The position numbers and the translations under genes are program-made. This document shows, piece by piece, positions 1 to 14,863 of a stretch of 64,000 bases of DNA. Numbering within the stretch: the first letter of the stretch is position 1; every line of letters begins with the position of its first letter. The DNA is from Agrobacterium tumefaciens (GTDB lineage Bacteria; Pseudomonadota; Alphaproteobacteria; Rhizobiales; Rhizobiaceae), in NCBI GenBank assembly GCA_025559845.1, contig CP048469.1, positions 1,240,001-1,304,000 of the forward strand, given 5' to 3'. The notes below the pieces were generated by a model that saw only the letters and a program-made list of their open reading frames with translations, was not told the origin of the DNA and did no database searches.

Positions 1-3000
1 GCCGTCATGTTGGAACGGGCAAGCTCGTTGAAATAGTTCAGCGGGATGGTTTTCAGGAGGGTTGGCTGAATGTCGATCAGCTTACCGCGCAGTTCCTCGA
101 CGACGCGAGACTGCGTTACGCGTTGGGCTCGACCTGGCTGTTGCTCTGGTCTGCGCTCTTTTCTCTGATAATTTGGCGTGCTTGTTTCAGATAGGCCTGC
201 CGGTCCGGATCGCGGGGCGACCACTGGCTCACCGAGGCGTGCCAATCCTTCCACTTCTGCAACGTGTCGAACGTCGCGGGGGGATCGTCGTGAAACCCTC
301 TGATCTGTGCCTGCTGCTGTGCCATCGCTGATCTGTCCCTTGAGCGCGACCGCCAATTTATCGAGCCTGGCCTCCAAGCCCTCGATGGCGGACGTATCAT
401 ACTTGTTGTTGCTGGAAATGTCGATAATCCCGGCCTTATCAGCCACGATTGCAGCCGTGTTGCGATAGGCCTCATTGCCCATCTCAGCCGTGATCTCGCC
501 CCGCTCGACGAGAGGACGCAGAAACGCGTCGATATCCTCGAGCGCAGATGCCAACTCGTTCTTCCAAGCCCTCACCACGCCGTTGTGGTCGGTAGACGCC
601 TGCACGAAGACATCGGCCTCTGGCGTCAGTGCGGCTCGCATCTGCATGCCGTCCTTGCCGAATGCCCATACAGAGTGGAGACCAGGTAGTGCGAGCATCG
701 TGAGATCAGCGACACTCAGAGGGCCGCTCGATGGGTGGTTATGGAATACGACAATGCGACGGTCCGGGTTCATCAACGCGCCCAGCAGGGTGTTATTGAT
801 GCCGGTTGCGGCCTTTTTCTTCGCGGTACCGAACTCGACAATGCTGCCGTCGTCATCTACGGCCATGAGGTATTCGTGGCCGTTCTTCCCAAACCGGGCA
901 ATGGTGTCCTTCGCCCACTTGAAGATCGCGGTACCGGAAGGCGCGCTTGGCAGGCCAACGGTCAACAGGTCGTTCGCGCTGCCGGTCTCAACGGGGTCAG
1001 GACGCTTGTTTGCGATCGGAGCGTCGTATTCCCCGCTCTCAACCGTTTTCGCTGCGGTGGCGCTCTTGGGCTGGGGCTTGAGAGCATCCAGCAGTCGACG
1101 GTGGCGTTCCGACGTCTCCGCGAGATCCTGCGTACCGATCCATGCGCCGATCTGCTTCTCGAGCGCGGGTGTCTGGGTACCAATCTCAGCGATACGCGCC
1201 TTGTCGAGATCTGGCTGGTTGGCGATACGCTTCACAGTGTTGGCGATGCGGGTTGCCAGACCTGCAGCATCGACGTCGGACGCATCATCGACCGGGACAT
1301 GGTATTCCTTGCCGCCATTGATGGTGACGTTGAATGCCCTGCCGTAACCCATCGGTTCGATGCCGATCTTGAAACCGGCATACTCGCCGATCTCGCGCAC
1401 ACCTTCCTTGTCGATCAGCTCCTTGCGCATCGCCGAGACGATGGCCGCGCCGAATTCCTTGCGCTTGTCGAACGCCTCGCCGTTGATGGTACCGGCGAAT
1501 TCCGCCGGCGCATTGCTGGCAAGCTCGGCGTCGGCCTGAACCGCTGCCATACCGGAACGAAGCTTTCCTGCTTCCTCCTCGAGCGAACGGATCTTGCCCT
1601 TGATGCGGTGCTGCTCTCTGTCATGCTCGACGGACTGGCCCTCGAGCTGGCGAAGCTTCCGGCGGGTGTCCATCTCCTCGAGGATCAGCGGATTACCGGA
1701 CGCTGCCGCCTTCATCTCAGCGGCGTTTGCGGCCTCACCGGCGATATCCTCGATCTCGCGGGCTTTCATATCACCCTTGCGCATCTGCTGGATAAAGCGG
1801 GCCTTGGCCTCGATTGTCTGCCACTGACGCGCATCCAGCGTGTTCTTGGTGGCATACCGAAGGATCTCGATCTCGAAACCTTCCGGATCGGCGGCATACA
1901 GCTCGTTGCCCTGGCGGATGCCCCGCCCGTCGCGCTGCTCGAGGTCAGACGGGCGCCACGGTGCGTCGAGGTGATGCAGCGCCACCAGTCTGTTCTGAAC
2001 GTTGGTCCCCGCACCCATCTTCGCCGTTGAGCCAAACAGGAAGCGGACACGGCCGGAACGGACCTTGCCGAACAGCTCTTCCTTCTGTGTCTCGGTGTTG
2101 GCGTCGTGGATGAACGCGATCTCCGCTTCCGGAATGCCGCGATCGATGAGCTTCTGTTTCAGATCATCATAGACAGAGAATGTGCTCTCGAGCGCCAGCA
2201 GCTCGTCGGGCGAAACCTTGTCCAGCGCCTCGATTGCGGCCTCATCGCCGTTATCGGCCTTCTCCATCAGGTCACGAAGGCGTGCCGCTTCTGCAGCCTG
2301 CGCTTTCTTCGGCGTCGAAAGGTCGATGAACACGAGCTGAGTGCCGCGCTGTTCCTTCGTCGCGTCGTAGATCCGCTTCATCTCATTTGCGGCTCGGTGA
2401 ACCTTCGATTTCTTATGATCCGGATAATTCGGGTCGATCAAGCGCATGTCGAGCGCCGCCTTACGGGCGTCAGACATGACCTTGAGCATGTTGTCTTTAC
2501 CCTTTTCGGCCTTCTTGGGCAGGTTCTCCGCCCGCCATACCAGAGAGCCACGCGGGAACACGAGGTTCCCGGCGTCGTCGGACTTGCCCTCACCGATGAA
2601 TGCGGCCTGATCGGACGAACGCTCGACAACCACGTTGGTGGGCTTTCCGCCCTTCACCTTCGGCAACGGGAATTTCTTGCCCTGAGCTGCGAGCTGCGCC
2701 TTGATGTCGTCATTGGTGATGACGTCGGCAAAGCTGCGGTACCGCTGCATCAGCTCTGGCACGTTGACGAACTTCGCGAACCGGCTGTTGAGCCGGTACT
2801 GTCCGGACGGTGAAAGCTCCCAATCGGTGACGACTTCGCCGAACACACGCGCCCAGGCATCGAAGTGCGACACACCCATGGCCCGCAGCGCCTTCTCGTC
2901 GAGGTAACGCTGAACTGTGAACATCTCGGCCATCGTATTCGACAATGGCGTACCGGTGAGGAAGACAACGTTATTGCCGCCGGTGCGCTCGAGCACGAAA

Positions 3001-6000
3001 CGCGACTTCATGTAGAGGTCTGCCGCCTTGGCACTGCCGGCCATGTTGCCGAGACCTGCCACACGTTGCATCGACGTGGAATAAGCGAGGTTCTTGAACT
3101 CGTGCGCCTCGTCGACATAGAGCGCATCAACACCCAGCTCGTCGAAGGTGAGGCCGTCGTCCTTCCTGCCGGAATCGAGCAGGCGTTCCATCTTGGCTTT
3201 GAGGTTATCGCGCCATTTGGTGAGTTGTGCGACGTTCCGGCTCTTAGCGCCCGTCGCACGTCGCACCTCTGCCAGTGAGGCCTCAAGATCATCCATTTGC
3301 TGCTGGATGAACTGCGCCTCATAGTTCGGATCGATGCCGATACGACCGAATGAGGAATGCGCGACGATCACAGCGTCCCAATCGCCCGTAGCGATGCGGG
3401 CAAACAGCCGCTTGCGGCGGTCTTTCTCAAAGTCCTGCTTTGTCGCAGCCAGGACCTTCGCACCGGGATAGAGACGGACGAAATCTGCAGCCCACTGACC
3501 GACAAGGTGATTGGGCACAACGAGCATCGGCTTGCGAGCCTGCCCGGTGCGGCGTTTCTCCATGACGGATGCGATGGCTGCAAAGGTCTTGCCCGCGCCT
3601 ACGGTATGATCGGCGAGCGCGGTACCACTCTGCAGCGTGCGCCAGATGAAGTTTTTCTGGCTGGGGCGTAGCTCGATGATGTCATCACCCACCTTGCCCG
3701 GGAGCGTGAGGTGCGAGCCGTCGAACTGCTGGATGACGTCGGTGTTGAACGTGTCGTTGTAGAGACGCGCCAAGTCATCGCGGCGGGTGTCATCCTGCCA
3801 CAACCACTTGCGCCACTCTGCCTTGACGCGCTCCACCTTCTCGTTGGCGGCGTCTGTAGCCGCCTGGTTGACGACGGACTTACCATCCGTGGTGCGGTCG
3901 TTGATCGTGATGGTCTGGCCGTTCAATACGGCGCTCAACACTGTTCCAACCGGTGCGCGATCGGTACCCCACTGCACCTGCGCCGCCGGCGTGACCTGCG
4001 GCACCTCGATGTCCCATTTCGCGTTCGCGGCGGAATAGAACACTTTCGGCCTGATCGATCCTTGGCCGATATGGCTGATGAAGTCCTGAACGTGCGATGC
4101 CGGGAGCCATGGTGCGCCTGGCTTAACATCGATGTCGATTGCCTCGATATCGGCTGGGATGACATCGCGCAGCGCATTCACGTTGCGGCGGAACTCCGGA
4201 TCTTGCTCTGCAGCTCGCTCAGCCTCGGCAAGCTTCTGCTTCACGTTGCCAGAGAGGTACTGGTCAGACGTCTCATACGCGCCGGTCGGTGTTCTGAATA
4301 CGAGCGGGCCCAGTTCGTCGACAATCGCATCGACCGGCTTGCCGTAGAGACGCGACATCGCCTCGAGATCGATACGCCCATAGTCGTTCAGGACCGTTGC
4401 AAGAGCATCCTTGGCGCTGCTCGCGCTGGTCGGGCGGCGGTATGGCTGCTGTGTCCTACGGCTGAAAATAGCCGCTTTGTCAGCCGTGGCAGGACGGGCC
4501 TTTTCGCCCGTTTTCTTTGCCATGCCCGCGCTGAGACCCTTATCGAAATTCTGCTCGAGCGCGCTGATCTGCGGCCACGTCGGATCATCGCGGAACAGAC
4601 GCTTATTTGCGTCCGAATTGACAGGACCATTAGACTTTACAAAGCCATCGTACAGACTGTTCAACCTTTTTCTGAGGTTTTCAATCTGCTGCTCCGTTGC
4701 CGTTTCGCTGATCTGAGCGCGGCGCAGCTTCGCAAAGGCGTCACGCACGCGGATCATGCCGGACACACGCTCTTTCGCGGTGTCGTTGGAGAAAGTAACG
4801 GCCTGCGACGTGGCGTTGCCGATGTGATCGGGGGTACGCAGGTGGATGGTGCCATCAGGCGCGGCAAACATGGTGCCGACTTGCACGTCGGTAACGGTCT
4901 CAGGGACGGTGACAGTTTCTGTCACCCTTGCAGCACCCGGTTCTGCCATGATGTCTCGCGGCAGTTTCTCGACGGCCTTTGCCAGCTCTGCCGGGGTATC
5001 CTGTCCACCTCGGGCAATGAGCGCGGGCTCATCAGGCCCATACATCGTGCCATATGCGCCGAAGTCACCCACCATCATTTCCGGGTTGTTGGCGAAATAC
5101 TTGTTCAACGGCACGGAATTGCCGTCCTTGCCGCGATAATCCACGACCTCGAGCCAATCGCTCGACTTCGGCGCAGCACCATTCTCGCGGCGCTGCAGGA
5201 TGACGATGTCCGTCGTGACCTCGGTACCGGCGTTCTTGAGGAACGCGTCATTCGGCAGTCGGATAGCGCCAATGAAATCCGCCTTGGCGTGGATCATGTT
5301 GCGCGCCGAGGCGGACTGGCCGTCGAGGAAACGGTTCGTCACGACCATGGCAAGCACGCCACCTGGTCGCAGAGTCTCAATCGCCTTGGCGAAGAAGAAG
5401 TTATGGATGGACAGCTTGTTGAGGTGCGTGCGCTCTTTGTCATAGAGCTTTTCCGAACCGAACGGCGGGTTGCCGATCGCCAGATCGAAATATGAATCGG
5501 GAACGGTCAGTTTCTCAAAGCCGACAGGGGCCTGAATGTTGGCGTTCGGATAGAGGTGCTTGGCGATAGAACCGGTGATGCGATCAAGCTCTACGCCGGT
5601 CACATTCGATGGGCCGCGCAAATCCCCAGGCATCAGACCAAGGAAGTTGCCAGCACCCACCGAAGGCTCGAGAACCTGCCCGCCCTTGAAGCCGAGACGC
5701 TGCACGATGCTCCACGCTGCATCCACGATCTCGGGAGACGTGAAATGCGCATTGCGCGTCGAGGACTCGGCGGCGCTGAATTCCTCTTTGGTCAGCAGAC
5801 CCTTGAGTTGTGCTGCTTCGCGCTCCCAGCCTTTGGCAACGCTGCCATCTTCACGCGGGAATGCAGAGCGCAGACCGCCCCAGCCGACCCACTTTGCGAG
5901 AACAGCCTGTTCGTCGCGGGTTGCCGGCCGCTTCTCCTCGTCGAGTTTTTTGACAAGCTCGATGGCCGCGACGTTGGCGCGGTATTTGGCTTTCTGCCCG

Positions 6001-9000
6001 CCCTCGCCCAATCCGTCTTCGGACGTGATGACGTAATCGGTAGGCCGCTGCTGTGCCGGTACAGACGCAACGCTGGTCTCGGTTACTCGATCGCGACTGT
6101 CCGTTGACCGCTGCGTGCGGCGCTCATCAGATCCTGAGACGTCTGGCTGGTCGTTTCTGCCTGCTGGCTGCCTTCCGGCGGAAGCAAGAGGTAATTCCCC
6201 CTCACCATCTGCCACGCCTCGTCCGGCTGGAACCCGTTCTGCTCGAGCTGGTCGGCTTCCAGATACGTCTGCTCCGCTGCGTCTTTCAGCGCCTCGTCCA
6301 GCGTCCCGGCCACTTTCAGCTCCTTGTACCTCTTCGGCAGGAACTCTTTCCAGTGCTGGCGCCCCAGCTCGATCCAGTTCTGCAGGTTCATTCTCGGCTC
6401 CGGTGAAGGTGTTTACGTCGGCGGCTTCTACGTCCGCTGCGCTCGACATGCCGTCGAAGGCTGCAGCGCGTGGATCGTACTTCACACCCATATACCACGA
6501 TTTGAGGTAAGGACGCGCCCCCTCGCCAAGGTCCGCCAGCATAGCCGAAGCGTATGCGGCAAAGGTGCGCGCCCCTTTCTCGATGTGGTAGCCTGCAAGT
6601 GTGATCCCGGCCTGCAACAGCTCCGGGTCGATGCCGCTGTTCAGGGTATTGCCGGAAAGCTTCTTCCGAAGCAACTCACGCGCCTTCGCCGCGGCGTCGT
6701 CAGTGAAGAGCTTGTTCTCGGAGACCGCAGGTTTAGCCTTCTGAGGAGCCGCGGCGGGTTTCTCCGCCGTTCTTTCCGGTACCGGATTATCACGCTCCCA
6801 CCGTGCCAGATCCTTCTCGGATGGCTGCGTCGAGTGGTTGCGCTCTCGATCGAGCGAGCCGTCTGCCTTTATCTCGGCAACCGTTACATTCCATCCGCGA
6901 GGTCCGCCGCGGTCAAAGCCAATTACACGATCAGGTCCGCCGTAACCCGGAACATCACGCCCAGGGCGGAAGTAGTTCTCAAGTCGGGCGAGGTTGTCGG
7001 GAGCCTTGCCCTTCTTCGGCTTGGGCTTCTGCTCCACCGGTGCTGGTGTGGCTGGCGGTGTGGCCTCACGCGCTGCCGCTTCGCGCCTCATGTCCTCGAG
7101 GGAGACCGCGAATTCCTTCCGTACAGCATCGGCGAGATCCTTGCCGCGCAGCACGATACGCTCGTTACCCCCGTCTTTCTCGAGCGTGATCGTGACTGAG
7201 GGTCCCTTACGGGTCTCAATCATGTAACGATTGCCGCCGGCACCGCCCTCGCCCCACCGCGTCTGGATCAGCTCGAGCAGAGCCTTGTTACTGACTTTGG
7301 CCTTGATCGCGTCAGAGATCGGCGTGTCACCGCCATTCACCTCGGCTATACGGCTCAGTGCGTCAGAGATCGCATCGGCTTCGCTGTTCCACACATCGGT
7401 CCAGGGGTACGCGCTCGGGTCAATCTCGCCACCCTTGGCACTCAGCACCGGCGGAGTGGTACGGCTACGCTCCAAGACCTCGAAGCGCTTACCACGCTGA
7501 ACAACCTCATGGGTCTGCCCCATCTTGTTTTTCGCCACGTAGGCGTCTGCTTTGTCCTGCGACGCAAACCATTTCGGCGCGAACGGGTCTTTCGTCTTGC
7601 CGGATTTCAGCCAGGTCTTGAAGTCGCCAAGCGTGGTTTGGCTGATATCGCCGAGACCCTTCCAGTCGGCGGTGTAGTTTTCGAGATATGCCGCACGTGC
7701 CTGTGCCTCGTTGTCGAAGCCAGCCATTACCTTGTGCTCATCAAAACGACCCCGGGCTGGGTCTTTCTGGTCGACGACAAAGATCGGCGCGGAATCGTCC
7801 AGTGTCTCGGTACCGGGACGCACGAAGATATCGATGTGATCCTTGTCCCGGCCTTCGGTACCGCGAATGTAGCCGTAATGGCTCTTCATATCGACGGACC
7901 ACGCCTTACCAGATCCGGACACGCCCTTGCGCTGCGATCCTGCGGGGTTCTCGACCGAGATATCTAAGCCGCCCAGCTTCAACCGGCCTACTTTGTAATT
8001 CCCAGCTTCCTTCTGTGCTGGTGTGGGCTCTGGCAGGTCATTGGTGGGCGACGTTGCGGCCTCGTTTGCTGCGGCTTCCGTCGTCGTCGGAGTTTCACCC
8101 GCCAACGTCGCGACATCTTCCGCTGCAGCGCGCTGCGCATCACGTACATCGAGCAGCTTCTTCTTGATGCCAGGCGTCATGTTGGCCCATGGCGTACGCT
8201 CTGGCCGTTTCACCCCAGCCTCAGCCAGAATGCGCTTGCGGTCTGGGTCTGTGAGATCAACCTCCCACCAGCTCGCGCCGTCGTCTGCGGCCTGTGGCTG
8301 TGCCTCACCCGCCTCTTTCGCCCTCGCCGCCTGCCGCTGCTTCAACAGCCGGTCATTCAGCGCATGCATCTTCACGGGCAACGTCGAGCGAGCATCCTTC
8401 GCTGCGCGTTCTGCACGGTACCGGTAATCATCTGCCATCGATGCGAGGTCGGAGACCTTCACGCCGAGTGCATCCGCAAGCCTCTTGCGCTCTGCAGGCA
8501 GCACGTTGTCCATGTCGACCTGTGACGTGCCGCCCAGCCGCTTTGCCATGATCTGCTCGCGGGCAAGGTCATAGAGCGCTGCGTGGTTGTCATCGGGGAG
8601 GACAACAGTCTTGCCGCCGATCTTGCGGCTGTTTGGGCCAGCATCGCCAATCTCGCGCTCGATGGGTGGATTGCGCTCGAGATCCTGTGCCTCGACCTGT
8701 GCCGCGGTAAGGCTGCTGACGTTTAACGCCGTCGTCGGCACCTGATACGGATTGCCCTTGTCATCGACTACAAGAGCCTCGTTGCCTTCGTTCTCATACC
8801 GCTCGATGCGCGCAGCGAACCTGCCTGCCTCTGGCGTATCGACAATGACACGCTGTCCGGGCTGTGGCCGCGTCGGGCGCATCTCGGTTGCTGGCTTGTC
8901 TTCGGAGCGTGGCGGAACCTCTGACGTGACCTGAGACGCCACTGGCGCCATCGGCTCGAGCGCAGGATCTGCAGACTGCTCTGGCATGCCATCGCTAGAC

Positions 9001-11720
9001 CGCTCGGGGAAACGATAGTCCTCGATCGGTGGCGCGATCTGCGTGATGTTGGCGAGCGGCACCTGGTACACTTCGCCACTGCCGGAATCGACCACGACGG
9101 CCTCATCGCCCTCGTAGCTCTCAACCGTGCCCATGAACGGCTCGATGCCTTCGGCCTCGACACGCACCGTGGCTCTGGTGGCCGGCCTGCCATCGATCGG
9201 CGCACCGGCATCCGCCGCCGCTGCACGTTCGGAACCGCGCTGCTGACCATGATCTGCAGCACGGCGCAGCGGGCCCCGGTTGTCTGGTTCTGCCTCAGGG
9301 GCTTCGATATCCTGCGGCGCAGACTGCTCTGCACCTGCACCGCGACGAGGACGGGCCAAGCCGCCAGCACCGCCCATGCCGCCGCCCATCGCGCCGCCAA
9401 CAGCCACACCAGATGCCAAGGATTCGCCGAGACCTTCTGTCAGCTCCTGATCCGGATTGACGCGGCGCATTGCTGCGTTCTCGGCGACGGTCTGGCCTAC
9501 GCTCTGCGGGGCCTCTTCAAACAAGCCTTCCGCAATCGCGCCACGCGTCATGCCAGTGGCGACGCGACGGACCACGCCGCCCTCAACGCCTTCGGCAACA
9601 ATCTTCGCCAGTGCACGGTCGCCCATGCCACCGAATGCGCCGGTGACGACACCTGCCGTAACGAGAGCCTGCATCTGCGCATCGCTGCTCACCGCTGCAA
9701 TGGCGTCATCCTCGGACATGCCCTGCGAAACGAGCTGCTTGACCGCATCCGACTGCACCAATTGCTCACGCGGCATTTCCGCGATCTTCTGGCGCACCGA
9801 GTTTGCGGCGTCTGCACCGCCCAACAATCCCTCGGTGATGCCGCCTGCCAGTGTTGCAGCCTTTGCCGCTGCTGCTGCCGCGACCTCAGTCGTCGCGCCT
9901 TGCGCCAGTGTCGCAAGATATGCGCCCCGAGCAACCAAGCCGGCGGGTGCCATGCTGGCGATTGTCGACGGGCCGCTTTCAGCGATCGCACCGATGTAGC
10001 TGCGCGGATCGGTCCACGCATCGCCCAGCCTGCTGTTCTCTTCGTCCCACCACTTCTTGTCTCGAGCTGCTTCACCCTCTGGCGAAAGCGTGGCGTTCTG
10101 ACGGTCAATGCTCTGCTGCAGGCGTTCATCGCTGCTGGTGCCGCCGCCGATCCACCTATCGATCCCGTCCAGCGCGTCGTTGATGAGCTTTCCACCTGGT
10201 ACCCTGTTGAGCAGCAGGTTGCCGAGGTTGTCGAGCGACTGGCTCGAGCCACTGGCTCCGGCACCCCAGCGACGTACGATGTCGCCAGCCGTGCCGCTCG
10301 CGCGGTTCTCCTTGTCCCACTGCTCCTGCCACGCGCCAAGCTCGCTCTCCGAGATCTCGCGGTACCTGCCCGGTTCCTTTGCCTCGAGGCCGGTGAGCGT
10401 CTTCTCGACCGTGGCGTTGTTGGCCGTCACCTCAGCCTCAGCGGCCTTGCGCTCTGCATCGGCCTTGGCCTGTTCTTCCGTCAACCGGCGCGTCTCGGCC
10501 GCACTGACTGCATCCTGCTCGATGGGATTTGCGCCGCCGGAGTACAGGCCGAGAGGGTCGCTGGCCTTGAAACCAGCATCAGCGACGATGCCCTTCGCCT
10601 CACCTGCCGCCCCCGGGTTCGCTGCCACCTCCTGAAACCATGCCGGTGCGCTGCGCATATTCCGGTTGCTGCGGTCGTACATGAACCACGGCGTACCCTT
10701 GCCGGTCTGATCCTTCATGTCGACGTGCAGCATGTCCGGGCTGTCTTTGTAGGTGATGAACCTACGAGCACCACGCGCATACAGCTCTCTCACGAGCTGC
10801 TGCCGCTCTGGCTCGCTCATGCCTTTCATCGACACGTCCGACGCCTTGCCTGTAGAATGCTCACCCGGTCCGTTCGCCTTTGCCGCCTCGACGCGATGCT
10901 TGGGCGAGCGGTACCCGGAGTTGATCGTGAAGTCGCGCCCCATGGCCTTCGACGTCTCGGAGAGGATCGATGCGAACTGCGGGTCGATGTTCTCCTGTCC
11001 GGCATGCACGAAGTTCAGCTTGCCGCCGGTACCGCGTGGCGCGTCCTCTGGCTCACGCACCAACCGGGCCAGCCCTTTGCCGTTCGGGTTGGGCGCGCTG
11101 GACTTGCCCTCATCACCCTGCAGCAGATCCTTGAACTGCCCCTTCGGGCCATACAGGCCAAGTGGGTCTTGCTCTGGCACGAACGCCGTCGATGTTGACG
11201 GTTCCTTGCCCTGCTTTCCACTCTTGGAATTGTAATAGACGTGCTCGCCGATCTTCGTCGTCTGCGGCATCGACGATGCCCAATACGGATTGACCGACGT
11301 GGCATGGTAATGATCCGCGCCTCCGGTCGGATCTGGGCCGTCGCTGGTCAGCACGCTGCGGAGAATGCCCTCAGCTCGAGCACGCATCGCAGGATCGCGC
11401 ATAGCCTCGACGGCCTTTGCGCCTGGCTGGGCGTAACCGGTGAACTGATCTGGCTCGCGCACCACATCACCAATGGACTTGCCACGGATATTCGATCGAT
11501 TGCGGATGACATGCGCAACGCCAGCCATGCCGTCGTCACCCTCGCCTGCAGCTTCGGCGATAACGGTGTTTACCGTATCGTCCCAATCGCGCTGCGACAT
11601 GCCTGCAGGCAGTGATGGTTTTGTATCGTTTTGAGGAGAAAGCCCGGGCGTTGTACCGCCGTACAGGTTGAGAGGATCATTCCACTCGGCATTGTCGCCG
11701 AGACCAAGGACGATGGGCAT
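1..11720 (-). CDS. Giant phage polyvalent protein (lytic domains + InPase + N6-MTase + helicase + RadC/JAB), partial
   Basis: The frame is open from ATG 11720 (AGGAG 8 nt upstream) to the window edge: at least 3906 codons, no stop. Domains in order, approximate residues: SleB-type cell-wall hydrolase 40-150; M15-type peptidase 235-345 (SGYRS, GxHxxGxAxD and MLHVDM motifs); hydrophobic Ala/Gly-rich segment 575-790; two related SH3/KOW-like units near 840-905 and 957-1000; InPase-like domain 1280-1370 (DKDHIDIF); N6-adenine methylase near 1990-2090 (GNPPFG); SNF2-like helicase 2690-3275 (VGAGKT, VDEAHEF, DGRGIRQG); RadC/JAB domain near 3615-3680 (FHNHPSSG). The layout matches DarB-like polyvalent proteins, virion proteins injected with the DNA. 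Inferred role: peptidoglycan breach and membrane passage, then protection of incoming DNA from restriction. The C-terminus lies outside the window. Confidence 0.92.
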   Translation of the reverse strand, partial: MPIVLGLGDNAEWNDPLNLYGGTTPGLSPQNDTKPSLPAGMSQRDWDDTVNTVIAEAAGEGDDGMAGVAHVIRNRSNIRGKSIGDVVREPDQFTGYAQPGAKAVEAMRDPAMRARAEGILRSVLTSDGPDPTGGADHYHATSVNPYWASSMPQTTKIGEHVYYNSKSGKQGKEPSTSTAFVPEQDPLGLYGPKGQFKDLLQGDEGKSSAPNPNGKGLARLVREPEDAPRGTGGKLNFVHAGQENIDPQFASILSETSKAMGRDFTINSGYRSPKHRVEAAKANGPGEHSTGKASDVSMKGMSEPERQQLVRELYARGARRFITYKDSPDMLHVDMKDQTGKGTPWFMYDRSNRNMRSAPAWFQEVAANPGAAGEAKGIVADAGFKASDPLGLYSGGANPIEQDAVSAAETRRLTEEQAKADAERKAAEAEVTANNATVEKTLTGLEAKEPGRYREISESELGAWQEQWDKENRASGTAGDIVRRWGAGASGSSQSLDNLGNLLLNRVPGGKLINDALDGIDRWIGGGTSSDERLQQSIDRQNATLSPEGEAARDKKWWDEENSRLGDAWTDPRSYIGAIAESGPSTIASMAPAGLVARGAYLATLAQGATTEVAAAAAAKAATLAGGITEGLLGGADAANSVRQKIAEMPREQLVQSDAVKQLVSQGMSEDDAIAAVSSDAQMQALVTAGVVTGAFGGMGDRALAKIVAEGVEGGVVRRVATGMTRGAIAEGLFEEAPQSVGQTVAENAAMRRVNPDQELTEGLGESLASGVAVGGAMGGGMGGAGGLARPRRGAGAEQSAPQDIEAPEAEPDNRGPLRRAADHGQQRGSERAAAADAGAPIDGRPATRATVRVEAEGIEPFMGTVESYEGDEAVVVDSGSGEVYQVPLANITQIAPPIEDYRFPERSSDGMPEQSADPALEPMAPVASQVTSEVPPRSEDKPATEMRPTRPQPGQRVIVDTPEAGRFAARIERYENEGNEALVVDDKGNPYQVPTTALNVSSLTAAQVEAQDLERNPPIEREIGDAGPNSRKIGGKTVVLPDDNHAALYDLAREQIMAKRLGGTSQVDMDNVLPAERKRLADALGVKVSDLASMADDYRYRAERAAKDARSTLPVKMHALNDRLLKQRQAARAKEAGEAQPQAADDGASWWEVDLTDPDRKRILAEAGVKRPERTPWANMTPGIKKKLLDVRDAQRAAAEDVATLAGETPTTTEAAANEAATSPTNDLPEPTPAQKEAGNYKVGRLKLGGLDISVENPAGSQRKGVSGSGKAWSVDMKSHYGYIRGTEGRDKDHIDIFVRPGTETLDDSAPIFVVDQKDPARGRFDEHKVMAGFDNEAQARAAYLENYTADWKGLGDISQTTLGDFKTWLKSGKTKDPFAPKWFASQDKADAYVAKNKMGQTHEVVQRGKRFEVLERSRTTPPVLSAKGGEIDPSAYPWTDVWNSEADAISDALSRIAEVNGGDTPISDAIKAKVSNKALLELIQTRWGEGGAGGNRYMIETRKGPSVTITLEKDGGNERIVLRGKDLADAVRKEFAVSLEDMRREAAAREATPPATPAPVEQKPKPKKGKAPDNLARLENYFRPGRDVPGYGGPDRVIGFDRGGPRGWNVTVAEIKADGSLDRERNHSTQPSEKDLARWERDNPVPERTAEKPAAAPQKAKPAVSENKLFTDDAAAKARELLRKKLSGNTLNSGIDPELLQAGITLAGYHIEKGARTFAAYASAMLADLGEGARPYLKSWYMGVKYDPRAAAFDGMSSAADVEAADVNTFTGAENEPAELDRAGAPALERVPAEEVQGAESGRDAGRGAERRSGADVSGSRPARAERVPAGRGVADGEGELPLASAGRQPAGRNDQPDVSGSDERRTQRSTDSRDRVTETSVASVPAQQRPTDYVITSEDGLGEGGQKAKYRANVAAIELVKKLDEEKRPATRDEQAVLAKWVGWGGLRSAFPREDGSVAKGWEREAAQLKGLLTKEEFSAAESSTRNAHFTSPEIVDAAWSIVQRLGFKGGQVLEPSVGAGNFLGLMPGDLRGPSNVTGVELDRITGSIAKHLYPNANIQAPVGFEKLTVPDSYFDLAIGNPPFGSEKLYDKERTHLNKLSIHNFFFAKAIETLRPGGVLAMVVTNRFLDGQSASARNMIHAKADFIGAIRLPNDAFLKNAGTEVTTDIVILQRRENGAAPKSSDWLEVVDYRGKDGNSVPLNKYFANNPEMMVGDFGAYGTMYGPDEPALIARGGQDTPAELAKAVEKLPRDIMAEPGAARVTETVTVPETVTDVQVGTMFAAPDGTIHLRTPDHIGNATSQAVTFSNDTAKERVSGMIRVRDAFAKLRRAQISETATEQQIENLRKRLNSLYDGFVKSNGPVNSDANKRLFRDDPTWPQISALEQNFDKGLSAGMAKKTGEKARPATADKAAIFSRRTQQPYRRPTSASSAKDALATVLNDYGRIDLEAMSRLYGKPVDAIVDELGPLVFRTPTGAYETSDQYLSGNVKQKLAEAERAAEQDPEFRRNVNALRDVIPADIEAIDIDVKPGAPWLPASHVQDFISHIGQGSIRPKVFYSAANAKWDIEVPQVTPAAQVQWGTDRAPVGTVLSAVLNGQTITINDRTTDGKSVVNQAATDAANEKVERVKAEWRKWLWQDDTRRDDLARLYNDTFNTDVIQQFDGSHLTLPGKVGDDIIELRPSQKNFIWRTLQSGTALADHTVGAGKTFAAIASVMEKRRTGQARKPMLVVPNHLVGQWAADFVRLYPGAKVLAATKQDFEKDRRKRLFARIATGDWDAVIVAHSSFGRIGIDPNYEAQFIQQQMDDLEASLAEVRRATGAKSRNVAQLTKWRDNLKAKMERLLDSGRKDDGLTFDELGVDALYVDEAHEFKNLAYSTSMQRVAGLGNMAGSAKAADLYMKSRFVLERTGGNNVVFLTGTPLSNTMAEMFTVQRYLDEKALRAMGVSHFDAWARVFGEVVTDWELSPSGQYRLNSRFAKFVNVPELMQRYRSFADVITNDDIKAQLAAQGKKFPLPKVKGGKPTNVVVERSSDQAAFIGEGKSDDAGNLVFPRGSLVWRAENLPKKAEKGKDNMLKVMSDARKAALDMRLIDPNYPDHKKSKVHRAANEMKRIYDATKEQRGTQLVFIDLSTPKKAQAAEAARLRDLMEKADNGDEAAIEALDKVSPDELLALESTFSVYDDLKQKLIDRGIPEAEIAFIHDANTETQKEELFGKVRSGRVRFLFGSTAKMGAGTNVQNRLVALHHLDAPWRPSDLEQRDGRGIRQGNELYAADPEGFEIEILRYATKNTLDARQWQTIEAKARFIQQMRKGDMKAREIEDIAGEAANAAEMKAAASGNPLILEEMDTRRKLRQLEGQSVEHDREQHRIKGKIRSLEEEAGKLRSGMAAVQADAELASNAPAEFAGTINGEAFDKRKEFGAAIVSAMRKELIDKEGVREIGEYAGFKIGIEPMGYGRAFNVTINGGKEYHVPVDDASDVDAAGLATRIANTVKRIANQPDLDKARIAEIGTQTPALEKQIGAWIGTQDLAETSERHRRLLDALKPQPKSATAAKTVESGEYDAPIANKRPDPVETGSANDLLTVGLPSAPSGTAIFKWAKDTIARFGKNGHEYLMAVDDDGSIVEFGTAKKKAATGINNTLLGALMNPDRRIVVFHNHPSSGPLSVADLTMLALPGLHSVWAFGKDGMQMRAALTPEADVFVQASTDHNGVVRAWKNELASALEDIDAFLRPLVERGEITAEMGNEAYRNTAAIVADKAGIIDISSNNKYDTSAIEGLEARLDKLAVALKGQISDGTAAGTDQRVSRRSPRDVRHVAEVEGLARLGEPVVAPRSGPAGLSETSTPNYQRKERRPEQQPGRAQRVTQSRVVEELRGKLIDIQPTLLKTIPLNYFNELARSNMT
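116..325 (-). CDS. Nested small ORF inside the giant gene (69 aa)
   Basis: The ORF lies in the frame shifted +1 from the giant gene and wholly inside it, just after the RadC/JAB domain. The ATG at 325 follows a purine stretch (AAGGGA, 10 nt upstream). By my count 53 of 69 sense codons end in G or C, against about 30 of 69 for the giant frame over the same bases, so this frame looks like the one under coding selection. The product is hydrophilic and tryptophan-rich (KWKDWH, WSPRDPDRQAYLK) with no recognised domain. It could instead mark a frameshifted stretch of the large gene, but the large frame stays open across it. Function unknown. Confidence 0.65.
   Translation of the reverse strand: MAQQQAQIRGFHDDPPATFDTLQKWKDWHASVSQWSPRDPDRQAYLKQARQIIREKSADQSNSQVEPNA
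6083..6391 (-). CDS. Nested small ORF inside the giant gene (102 aa)
   Basis: The ORF is nested +1 in the linker between the InPase-containing half and the methylase-helicase half of the giant protein. The ATG at 6391 has GGAG about 6 nt upstream. By my count 85 of 102 sense codons end in G or C, against about 39 percent for the giant frame here. The product is a compact, charged, probably helical protein (WIELGRQHWKEFLPKRY at the N-terminus, GNYLLLPPEG later). It resembles small phage proteins of the WxxLGxxHWxEFLPxxY type that I recall without a function. The giant frame encodes a low-complexity Arg/Gly/Ala/Glu linker over these bases, so the small gene seems to be overprinted on a spacer. 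Confidence 0.75.
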   Translation of the reverse strand: MNLQNWIELGRQHWKEFLPKRYKELKVAGTLDEALKDAAEQTYLEADQLEQNGFQPDEAWQMVRGNYLLLPPEGSQQAETTSQTSQDLMSAARSGQRTVAIE

Positions 11721-11922
11721 GCGTGGGCTCCTGATCGAGAGCCGCACTCATGCGCGGACGTGATGATCCGTTTATAGTTTGAACCGCATCGAATTGGAAG
11801 TTGGATTGAGTTTCTGCGGTTTTTTCAATGTGTTCAACACCTGTGGATTGCTTGGCCTCCCACGTCGACTTGCAAAGGCAAAGGTGCACAATCGAGTTCT
11901 TGGAATCGTTAGGAGAAATACC

Positions 11923-12156
11923 ATGACAGATAAAATCCCGAACCAGCGCTGGGACGTCTACATCGCTAATCCAGACAGTGAAGATCAATTTCGCGGCAAG
12001 GCGGTTTTAGCAGATCCTGCGCGCCCTTTGCCTGATGAAGTCCTACGTAACTTCACCATAGATAAAGAGGACGAGCTGGTCATTATTACAGACCCGCTTA
12101 TGCGCGACTATCAAATGGTTGCGGCTCACGGCTTTGTTCTATCTACGATTGAGTGA
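11923..12156 (+). CDS. Small hypothetical protein (77 aa)
   Basis: The start at 11923 is set by AGGAG (11911-11915) 7 nt upstream; longer upstream starts would run through a poorly coding stretch. The soluble, acidic product shows no domain I recognise. It is one of two plus-strand genes between the giant gene and the acyltransferase, both of which read leftward, so it probably belongs to an independently transcribed cassette carried by the lysogen. Function unknown. Confidence 0.6.
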   Translation: MTDKIPNQRWDVYIANPDSEDQFRGKAVLADPARPLPDEVLRNFTIDKEDELVIITDPLMRDYQMVAAHGFVLSTIE

Positions 12157-12226
12157 CACGCGAAACGCTGCCACCCCTTTTATGGTGTGACAAAATTCCG
12201 CCCTCACCCACTCGCACTGTCCCTCG

Positions 12227-12517
12227 ATGACCGAACCTTACCAACCCAAATACCGCTGGAAGCGCACCCAGATCGACGCTCAAGACCCGCCCACGGATTT
12301 CGACTGGACGGGTTACGACGGCGTCGAGGTTGTCGGCCGTGTACGCAAAGACATGCACGGTCCGACAAAAGGCAAATGGCAATGGGCTGGCTATTTTCCG
12401 TCTGGCTTCAAAGGCGCTCCGCCAACGCCGAATACCGGCTACGTCGAAACCGCTCGTCTGGCGATGCAGAAGTGTGAAGAGTATTGGGAGCGAGCGAACG
12501 AGGCGAACAGTAGATGA
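12227..12517 (+). CDS. Small hypothetical protein (96 aa)
   Basis: The product is rich in Trp, Tyr and Pro (YRWKRTQ, FDWTGYDG, WQWAGYF) and ends in an acidic helix (CEEYWERANEA). No clear Shine-Dalgarno precedes the ATG at 12227. It follows the 77-aa gene by 70 bp on the same strand and converges on the acyltransferase gene, whose stop lies 16 bp beyond. It looks like a soluble beta-rich phage or cassette protein; I do not recognise the family. Confidence 0.55.
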   Translation: MTEPYQPKYRWKRTQIDAQDPPTDFDWTGYDGVEVVGRVRKDMHGPTKGKWQWAGYFPSGFKGAPPTPNTGYVETARLAMQKCEEYWERANEANSR

Positions 12518-12532
12518 GCATCGACGTCCGCG

Positions 12533-13642
12533 TTAAGCGATGACAACTCTACGCTGGAATACAGATTGAATAGCGGAAGACAAGCGAACTGCTATCGGCT
12601 TTTCAATCCATTGTGCGATGACGAAGGCTACGGCGATTGAACCAGCAAATGCCAGCGCAATTGATGCCTCTGGAGACACCCCTGTCGGGTAGAGCCACAG
12701 CATAATCGCTCCGCCAACATGAAAATGGACCAAATACAGTGGGTATGTGATCCGCCCGAGAGCCATGACGAGTCCTCTAACAGGCGTTAAAACGCGAGAG
12801 ATGTAACTGTTCCAGTAGATCGACCCGGCCATAGCAAACATCGCAAAAGCCCAAACAAGATAAGGGACCATTGGCCAGAGGTCGAAACCAAACCCTGGCT
12901 TTTCCCACACGAGTGATGTCTTGATTTGTACCCACGTCGGCAAGAGCGACACCACCATAACAGCAACATTCAACGCGCTCGCGCCTTTTGTTTTGAGCAG
13001 CCAGAACGCGACCCCTAGGGCAAAGTAGCAGCCATGCTGCAAAAGGAATAACTGAGTGAGACGCCCGGTGGTATCTTCATAAAATCCGCTTGTCACCGCC
13101 AGCCAATAAAACGCCGAAGCAAATGCGACAGCGAGGCATACCCACGCGATGCGATCAAAGCTACGGAAAATCAGTAGCGCCAACATTAAACCGTAAAACA
13201 TTATCTCAATGGGCAGTGTCCAAATTTGACCAGCAATCCACGGCCCGAATGGGAAAAATGTGATGCTCTTCGCGTATAGATAAAGCGCCGAAGAGACAGG
13301 AAATGCCTGCCAGTAGAGCGTGATGGCTAAGCAGATTGTCGCGCTTATCCACATTACTGGCGCCAGTCTGGCTATACGTCCGACAATGAACTTAGAGGGC
13401 GCAGAATTCTCACTAGAAAACGCTATGACAAATCCGGAGATGACGAAGAATATTTGAACTCCGACCCACCCGAACCATGTCTCTTCCGACCACGACCACA
13501 AGATATCCGGGGCCCGTAATTCTTCGTGGAGATAGTATGTATCGAGAGACCAAGCTTTGTATCCGAGATGATACGCCATAACCATAATAGCGGCTATGAA
13601 CCGAAGTACATCGATCCCGAGATATATTTCCCGATTACGCAT
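12533..13642 (-). CDS. Acyltransferase family 3 (OafA/YrhL-like) integral membrane O-acyltransferase
   Basis: The 369-aa protein has about ten hydrophobic segments. The family signature sits at the N-terminus: GIDVLRFIAA, then MAYHLGY carrying the conserved His, then FFVISGFVIAF and GRIARLAPVMW. Such enzymes move an acetyl or other acyl group across the inner membrane onto surface polysaccharide. AGGAAGGGA 6 nt upstream supports the ATG at 13642. In a prophage this gene is a typical lysogenic-conversion function that changes the phage receptor or surface antigen. Base composition is visibly lower in GC than the neighbouring structural genes, which fits recent acquisition. The family is secure; the acceptor is unknown. 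Confidence 0.88.
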   Translation of the reverse strand: MRNREIYLGIDVLRFIAAIMVMAYHLGYKAWSLDTYYLHEELRAPDILWSWSEETWFGWVGVQIFFVISGFVIAFSSENSAPSKFIVGRIARLAPVMWISATICLAITLYWQAFPVSSALYLYAKSITFFPFGPWIAGQIWTLPIEIMFYGLMLALLIFRSFDRIAWVCLAVAFASAFYWLAVTSGFYEDTTGRLTQLFLLQHGCYFALGVAFWLLKTKGASALNVAVMVVSLLPTWVQIKTSLVWEKPGFGFDLWPMVPYLVWAFAMFAMAGSIYWNSYISRVLTPVRGLVMALGRITYPLYLVHFHVGGAIMLWLYPTGVSPEASIALAFAGSIAVAFVIAQWIEKPIAVRLSSAIQSVFQRRVVIA

Positions 13643-13721
13643 TTCGCATCCCTTCCTAGCCCCTTAAGGAAGAGTTACCGCAACGCAATAAATATTGCCA
13701 TGCAGCTCGAGGGATTTATTT

Positions 13722-13931
13722 CTACGATACGTAAGTTACCGAGGGATGAGCAATCATCACTTCATGCTGTGCCGGGGTTAGCCAAACTTTAATGACGAAG
13801 CCTGCCACCTTGTCAGTCGTATCGAGAGATACAGTCCCGCCATGCTTCTCGATCATGAAGGTTTTCCAACCAGGTACGTCTGTGTCATCGGGATCGTAAA
13901 ACGGGATGATGCGATAGATGTATTCGTTCAT
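13722..13931 (-). CDS. Small phage protein downstream of the fibre gene (69 aa)
   Basis: The ATG at 13931 overlaps the stop of the fibre-like gene as ATGA, so translation is probably coupled. The product opens MNEYIYRIIPFYDPDD and has alternating hydrophobic residues that suggest a small beta-rich fold. It is the last gene of the leftward structural block before the acyltransferase cassette. Phage proteins here are often fibre chaperones or attachment accessories, but nothing in the sequence proves that role. Confidence 0.65.
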   Translation of the reverse strand: MNEYIYRIIPFYDPDDTDVPGWKTFMIEKHGGTVSLDTTDKVAGFVIKVWLTPAQHEVMIAHPSVTYVS

Positions 13932-14863
13932 GCTGCAAGCGCCTTTATGCTAACTGTGCCGAAGAGAGGGGTGATGGAGGCTCGGACTGTGTGTCCTGCC
14001 TTCGTCGCGGTCGACAACCGGCCTCCCAAAGAGATATTCGAGCCGATGAGCTCTGCACCGTTCCTCGTCAAGGAAACGGCGCCCCCAACCACTTTCATTT
14101 CGATCTCATCGCCAATGACTACTTCTTGTGGCGATGTTCCTAGAGATATGAACCCCTCTGTCGTTGTTACAACGTATAATTGCCAGAGGTTCCCGTTCCG
14201 ACGAAGGCCTGCGTAATTGTCCCCGTCGATCATCCGCAGGCATAGAAAGAACGTCTGGGAATTTGCGATGGTCTGAATTGTGGTTTTGATAGAGTGGTTG
14301 GGTGACCCGGTTTCAACCATGTACGGCGTGTCGGGTGCTGCGCCCGCGACATGCTTTACGGTGCTAGCTCCGGTTGTTTGCGCCGATCGTCCACCCGCCC
14401 CTTTTATCCAAGAGCTGCGTGCCGAGAGATCGGCATTGTTTGCTCCGTCAGCGAAAGTATCGGTGAACGCAAACAGGGTGCCAGCACTCGGCGTAACGCT
14501 CTTCACATCGCTATCCGCCCCATTGCCTATCGCGTTTACAGCACGCACCTTAACGTTGACCGATGCACCGTTTGTCAGGCCGTTGATGTCGAAGGTGCCA
14601 GGGGACGATATGCCTGAGGCAGTCCAAGCCCCTGCGCCAACCTGGTATTGAATAGCCGTGATAGCTGACCCACCATCCGCTGGGAGCGCCGATATCGTAA
14701 CTGTTGCTCTGCCACCGACCGCGGCATCGACCACAGACCATTGCCCCGCGCCGAAGGCCGCTGGTGCGGTTTGAGCGGGGGGGCTGTTCTCGCCCTGCTT
14801 CGCCTCACTCAGGGCAACGAGCCTACGAAGCGACTTCATGTTCCCCTTGAGCCGCATCCCCAT
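13928..14863 (-). CDS. Tail-fibre/appendage-like protein with fibronectin type III domain
   Basis: The 311-aa product has a short basic N-terminus, a Pro/Ala linker, and a fibronectin type III-like domain at about residues 35-125 (motifs ITAIQYQVGAGAW and GLTNGASVNVKVRAVNAIG). A beta-rich C-terminal domain of about 180 residues (FAFTDTFADG, FFLCLRMIDGDNYAGLRR) resembles a jelly-roll carbohydrate-binding module. This arrangement suits a virion appendage contacting cell-surface sugars. The start at 14863 overlaps the upstream stop as TAATG; an in-frame ATG at 14857 is possible. No catalytic depolymerase motif is visible. Confidence 0.75.
   Translation of the reverse strand: MGMRLKGNMKSLRRLVALSEAKQGENSPPAQTAPAAFGAGQWSVVDAAVGGRATVTISALPADGGSAITAIQYQVGAGAWTASGISSPGTFDINGLTNGASVNVKVRAVNAIGNGADSDVKSVTPSAGTLFAFTDTFADGANNADLSARSSWIKGAGGRSAQTTGASTVKHVAGAAPDTPYMVETGSPNHSIKTTIQTIANSQTFFLCLRMIDGDNYAGLRRNGNLWQLYVVTTTEGFISLGTSPQEVVIGDEIEMKVVGGAVSLTRNGAELIGSNISLGGRLSTATKAGHTVRASITPLFGTVSIKALAA

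Follow-up and report, generated by a model that had tools for sequence, protein, structure and literature searches.

Can the bases that encode the linker of a giant phage protein also encode a second protein in another reading frame, and what could such a protein be for? This question arises in the window, i.e. the whole stretch of 64,000 nucleotides of Agrobacterium tumefaciens contig CP048469.1 that was analysed, where a small open reading frame (ORF) lies within a giant gene on the same strand (Table 1). The DNA around the small ORF was taken for a prophage on the grounds that phage and IMG/VR records are closest to it. In the whole 6.3-Mb host genome, the small protein has one match.

Table 1. 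Positions of the features discussed, counted from the first nucleotide of the window.
Feature	Position	Strand	Description
Giant DarB-like polyvalent protein frame	3..11747	-	3915 codons in the window; runs past the left edge, no stop
Overprinted small gene	6083..6391	-	ATG, 102 codons, TAA at 6085-6083; 102 aa; distantly TnpV-like, four predicted helices
Giant-protein linker, residues 1786-1888	6083..6391	-	Low-complexity R/G/A/E; same bases as the small gene; amino acids apparently little constrained, never stopped
GGAG Shine-Dalgarno-like site	6398..6401	-	6 nt 5′ of the small-gene ATG; from sequence
TAA in the small frame	6413..6415	-	21 nt open between this stop and the ATG
First part of the methylase module, 3′ of the overlap	4791..5990	-	Segment used as search query
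Second overprinted ORF	116..325	-	69 aa; in the +1 frame of the giant gene; codon-position pattern flips there (347-108)

The enclosing gene encodes a polyvalent protein with Pfam matches to Hydrolase_2, peptidase M15, InPase, an Eco57I-type N6-methylase, SNF2, and Helicase_C, and it matches PHROG_10089, named 'DarB-like antirestriction'. By these Pfam and PHROG matches it is DarB-like in the sense of an adenine methylase fused to an SNF2/SF2 helicase and other domains. Methylase-helicase dyads in polyvalent proteins, and an LPD36 domain with a GXGU motif at the methylase N-terminus, are described in the available text of PMC5512222. Shortly 3′ of the overlap, the giant frame encodes GLGEGG, which resembles this motif; LPD36 is absent from the Pfam matches of the giant protein, and the label is given here by the motif alone. 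For phage JC1, the giant protein is reported to be virion-borne in the available part of PMC9144972.

The small ORF is in the +1 frame relative to the giant gene, with its first base at giant-frame offset 5356, and is preceded by ..ttcaccGGAGccgaga-ATG. An earlier note on this DNA had described it as a 102-codon frame with its own GGAG site, had counted 85 of 102 codons ending in G or C against about 39 percent G/C at giant third positions, had seen the giant frame run through without a stop, and had taken the small frame for the selected one. The frame, the GGAG site, and the uninterrupted giant frame were all found as described, and a recount gave G or C at 66, 39, and 85 of the 102 first, second, and third codon positions of the small ORF. 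Giant third positions over the overlap, which are identical with the small second positions, are G or C in 39 of 102 cases (38%). In windows of 150 nt, both flanks have a giant-frame GC3 of 0.52-0.82; it drops to 0.28-0.34 in the first two overlap windows and then recovers.

Homologues of the small ORF were detected by tblastn in 21 phage records, comprising phages of Agrobacterium, Sinorhizobium, Ochrobactrum, Vibrio, Pseudomonas, Erwinia, and Klebsiella and one phage labelled Microcystis; in the 11 phage records examined, it is nowhere annotated as a gene of its own. Together with IMG/VR and genome scans, the locus set comprised 107 rows, or 89 after removal of identical ORFs. At 81 of these 89 loci, the two frames keep their relative phase, and no stop interrupts the giant one between 300 nt upstream and the end of the small ORF. 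The remaining eight are phage PBC5 (L017), L047, which is overprinted and has a giant frame open only from 82 nt upstream, and six loci outside an intact giant gene (L036, L037, L041, L044, L046, and L091). A more distant search added 12 loci with ten distinct ORFs, all 12 without a stop in the giant frame; at one of them, L128, this frame is open from 256 nt upstream. Homologues with stops in the small frame and conservation in the giant frame alone were looked for and not found. The protein retains 18 invariant residues among 19 sequences, with identities as low as 37%, and 186 database proteins match it at E≤0.01.

Genome records bearing the overprint are labelled Pseudomonadota, but also Planctomycetota, Chlorobiota, and Fibrobacterota, the latter being MAG contigs that are possibly misbinned. 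Among genomes of the same family, two of 151 have a match, including the window's own, and the only match in a class-level scan of 369 genomes was the seed itself. Plasmids searched by tblastn with the window protein and with L036 gave no match, nor did the LASTA segment against E. coli genomes. The overprint is not local to these prophages, being common to phages of many hosts and a plasmid described below. As a side observation, the record of phage Itty13 (L022, 3905-15163) places three long genes opposite the homologous giant frame, while the giant gene itself is unannotated there.

For the analysis of selection on both frames, the small gene of each of the 81 loci was subjected to 500 within-gene synonymous shuffles. 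Giant-frame stops over all loci numbered zero in the real sequences versus a mean of 90.5 (minimum 71) in the shuffled ones, and at most 38 of the 81 loci stayed open in any shuffle. The window ORF alone is a weak case because its giant frame stays open in 15% of shuffles; the comparison over many loci carries the result. Across 30 disjoint pairs, differences at small codon positions 1, 2, and 3 numbered 329, 318, and 631, compared with 571, 389, and 2168 at the three giant positions of the downstream giant codons. The upstream flank (1610, 1562, and 2519) is too divergent to act as a control.

The two-frame comparison of substitution rates that the earlier note had proposed was run across homologues and favours the small frame. 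Classified as synonymous (S) or nonsynonymous (N) in the small and the giant frame, in this order, raw rates from 23 pairs were 0.215 for SS, a class with few changes (14 over 65 opportunities; SN/SS 0.71-2.01), 0.231 for SN, 0.056 for NS, and 0.066 for NN, and 22 of the 23 pairs agree in direction. The small-frame omega of about 0.27 indicates purifying selection. Changes that are synonymous in the small frame and nonsynonymous in the giant frame occur at 0.72 of the flanking synonymous rate (bootstrap 0.61-0.87), versus 0.13 for nonsynonymous changes in flanking giant codons, so the giant amino acids over the linker appear little constrained. Both frames are apparently kept, the small one for its sequence and the giant one mainly for its continuity, because purifying selection acts on the former while the latter has no stop where 90.5 were expected.

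These data bear on two simple explanations. The low-complexity linker and the GC-rich region might have produced an ORF by chance through GC skew; conservation down to 37% identity with its invariant residues, the signature of selection, and the Shine-Dalgarno results given below contradict this reading, the probability of which we regard as negligible. Alternatively, the giant protein might not be translated through the small gene at all, its open frame being a by-product of codon usage. Such a view would suit the weak constraint on the giant amino acids and the shuffles in which the window ORF stays open, yet it is hard to reconcile with the absence of stops over 81 loci and with the return of the coding pattern, in one and the same giant frame, on either side of it, and it was rejected as highly improbable. 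The small ORF is almost certainly a real, conserved nested gene as judged from these sequence comparisons, and the giant frame is very probably translated through the overlap.

A scan of 40-codon windows along the giant gene in 19 sequences, including that of the window, revealed the flip of the codon-position pattern at two places only, namely at 6347-6108, within the small gene, and at 347-108. At the latter, an ORF homologous to the second overprinted ORF is present in all 19 aligned giants. Two windows at 7067-6828 were flagged weakly, with few alignable pairs there.

Start sites were analysed for 92 overprinted loci, i.e. the 81 loci, the ten distinct ORFs of the distant search, and L047, with starts chosen by a script. 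The start codon is ATG at 85, GTG at six, and TTG at one of them. A Shine-Dalgarno (SD) match of at least 4 nt precedes 86 of the 92 starts, compared with 17.2% of 11,719 same-frame control ATGs, and a match of at least 5 nt precedes 47 starts, compared with 3.5% of the controls; a match of at least 4 nt is missing in L108, L121, L128, L129, L170, and L174. The small frame is open for only 6 nt before the ATG in Erwinia and Klebsiella phages, for 15 nt in VvAW1, and for 21 nt in the window, which argues against entry by frameshifting from far upstream.

A programmed +1 frameshift from the giant into the small frame, yielding an alternative C-terminus, would be suggested by phage PBC5, where (around 7733-8309) a single ORF (orf33, 2185 aa) combines the first half of the giant with the small frame and the second half lies in another frame. 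The split is either genuine or due to a mistake in an old record, and it is the sole such case among 89 loci. Since in several groups a small-frame stop leaves no more than 6 to 21 nt open ahead of the start, and since a start codon is found at all 92 loci and an SD match at 86, frameshifting was rejected as well and is scarcely credible as the origin of the small protein. The PBC5 arrangement is apparently also the reason why PHROG_938, a family named 'endolysin' that has as many positions as orf33 has residues (2185), terminates in the small protein; the match of the small protein to this family is probably inherited from there.

In the AlphaFold (AF2) model of the small protein, four helices lie within residues 3-63 and the tail is of low confidence; 64 of the 102 residues reach a pLDDT of 90 or more. 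The best structural neighbour is 2apl (PG0816-like fold), a weak match for a helical protein. A fold search of the PDB gave no match at E≤0.001, and a sequence search of the PDB gave weak matches only (best E 0.11). In BFVD, the fold search gave one match, a 1093-residue entry with 65% identity that is probably PBC5 orf33. The nearest named family is TnpV (PF14198). The window protein itself scores 12.4 bits (E 0.15), below the Pfam cut-off of 27 bits, while 22 of 82 relatives match at E≤0.01 (best 1.5e-4) and two overprinted relatives exceed the cut-off, L047 with 35.5 and L195 with 28.4 bits. For comparison, a canonical TnpV (L190), which is a stand-alone ORF, reaches 153.6 bits; TnpV matches were found in five of 100 genomes, two of them above the cut-off. 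The small protein is probably a distant relative of TnpV with a predicted four-helix domain, sharing with that family a small size and an occurrence in mobile elements.

Which part of the giant gene does the small gene accompany? Profiles of segments were built from the 19 aligned giants. The profile of the segment after the overlap matches at 90 of the 92 loci, and both misses are contigs ending there. The spacing between overlap and profile has a median of 32 nt (range -58 to 569), which means only that the spacing is kept, as the profile begins 5 codons past the overlap by construction. For the domain preceding the overlap, the profile matches at 65 of the 92 loci; three of the 27 misses have less than 1.3 kb of upstream DNA. 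At six loci (L047, L116, L121, L128, L136, and L191), the small gene is located near the start of a separate gene matching a methylase-type profile, and the gene of L191 matches the methylase-helicase profile of the giant at E 1.4e-232.

A comparable arrangement occurs on the Micromonospora plasmid pVMKU (L195), where an annotated hypothetical gene, TnpV-like and reached from the L047 protein at a tblastn E of 0.04, lies ahead of an annotated helicase. The frame of the latter extends without a stop from 1797 nt upstream, its coding-like GC3 dips only across the small ORF, and the long frame matches the methylase-helicase profile of the giant at E 1.4e-248. By its sequence, this looks like the same kind of overprint, in the same relative frame, on an actinobacterial plasmid. 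The annotated start of the helicase (6483, within 4686-12266) omits about 1.8 kb of an open, codon-like frame overlapping the TnpV-like gene.

In the Bcep22-like phages JC1, DC1, BcepMigl, BcepIL02, and CSP3, a +1 ORF is present at this place in all five cases, with AAGGAG before the ATG. The five Lessievirus small proteins are likely homologous to the family: the profile-profile match is weak (probability 12.6%, E 0.0023), and the JC1 protein matches the family profile at E 0.015 and Pfam TnpV at E 0.029. Changes among them are too few for a substitution test; between the closest pairs, second and third codon positions show nearly the same number of differences (13 and 14). A clearer family-profile match was obtained for USP_25 (E 4.8e-6), and in L201 such a match lies roughly 2.7 kb upstream, in the +1 frame. 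Candidate +1 ORFs are also present in 8P, Y7, BKO1-TP3, and the Dolichospermum phage Dfl-JY45; the candidate in the latter (L207, 4171-4950) is a 260-codon +1 frame before the methylase module with a GC3 of 0.82. Beside the related methylase modules of L199, L200, L203, L208, and L209, no convincing +1 ORF was found. Taken together, the small gene appears to accompany the methylase-helicase module rather than the linker as such. In this respect the earlier reading has to be modified: a separate, selected gene overprinted on the giant stands, while its tie appears to be to the methylase-helicase module rather than to the linker between the InPase and methylase-helicase parts as such.

Some copies are free-standing. 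No methylase module was found near L036, L037, and L041, whereas L044 is located near McrBC and L046 near HsdM, a setting that fits a restriction-modification context in these two cases only. In L044 (Pseudidiomarina, 9974-14733), the small domain forms the N-terminus of a 262-aa ORF, the C-terminal half of which looks hydrophobic, and AAA_5 and McrBC genes follow downstream. L091 is flanked by rearranged fragments of the giant gene on both strands. A tree was built on 107 columns for 102 rows. An ancestral free-standing gene through which the giant was fused later is unsupported within the family: starred branches unite L046, L091, and L037 with overprinted relatives, and these three copies are therefore likely derived, as escapes or remnants. 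Mapping of three states on the tree required 12 changes, compared with 12.7 for shuffled labels, i.e. there is no extra clustering, and the canonical TnpV forms a very long branch.

As for function, we propose that the giant mRNA would be read in two frames. Ribosomes passing the overlap would produce the giant protein with a flexible linker, and others would begin at the internal ATG and produce the 102-aa helical protein. The latter would serve the DarB-type adenine methylase/SNF2-helicase module encoded just downstream as a dedicated partner, be it an accessory subunit, a chaperone, or a restraint, and the overlap would ensure that both proteins come from one message and one place. The partner role is inferred from gene neighbourhood, because the small gene is found with the methylase-helicase whether the latter is part of a giant, a separate gene, or plasmid-borne; taken alone, this role has roughly an even chance of being correct. 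The related modules without a convincing +1 ORF, phage P1 with DarB but no match to the small-protein profile, and the free-standing copies L036, L037, and L041 speak against it. The proposal as a whole, with a nested gene, read-through of the giant, and a partner of the module, is our best explanation, and we lean slightly towards it.

A real small protein might instead have a role unrelated to the methylase, for example in element excision or virion assembly, with its place being historical. Its distant TnpV similarity and the free-standing copies would agree with this, and TnpV of Tn4451 has been postulated, from its homology to lambda Xis, to act in excision, according to the available text of PMC3158075. 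Against it, the small gene precedes the methylase-helicase in phages and a plasmid, and two free-standing copies adjoin restriction or modification genes; we consider such a role a serious though lesser possibility. A bolder version of the partner proposal would see an ancient frame-locked overprint in phages and plasmids of several phyla, in which a TnpV-like gene was set before the DarB-type methylase-helicase, the linker has next to no sequence of its own and is mainly the shadow of this gene, and the small protein is an obligate partner made in cis that loads or restrains the methylase before injection. This version is rather unlikely and is put forward tentatively.

Nested genes, TnpV, and DarB-like proteins are each already known. 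Rz1 within Rz (available text of PMC9144972 and PMC9409062) is likewise a complete gene in another frame with its own start; it is named here as a nested pair only, beside an overlap in which the enclosing frame shows little amino-acid constraint and is kept mainly for continuity. P1 antirestriction is reported, in the available text of PMC9144972, to need Ulx, Hdf, DdrA, and DdrB besides DarA and DarB. The idea of accessory proteins is similar, but this is an analogy only: P1 has DarB, and neither half of its genome contains a match to the small-protein profile. The accessible parts of PMC5512222, PMC9144972, PMC6630229, and PMC9409062 do not mention the overlapping gene, and among the papers listed in the literature searches, subscription papers aside, the text available gave no description of this overlap; that of PMC7457138 was unrelated.

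The finding reveals a gene that was overlooked as a gene of its own in all 11 phage records examined, and shows that a giant protein can gain a linker by out-of-frame reading of another gene. It is also a clear example from nature of overlapping frames under different constraints, one in its sequence and the other mainly in its continuity, and it provides an experimentally tractable candidate accessory factor for virion-borne antirestriction methylases. If the arrangement is general, annotation that bars nested genes on the same strand would miss a whole family.
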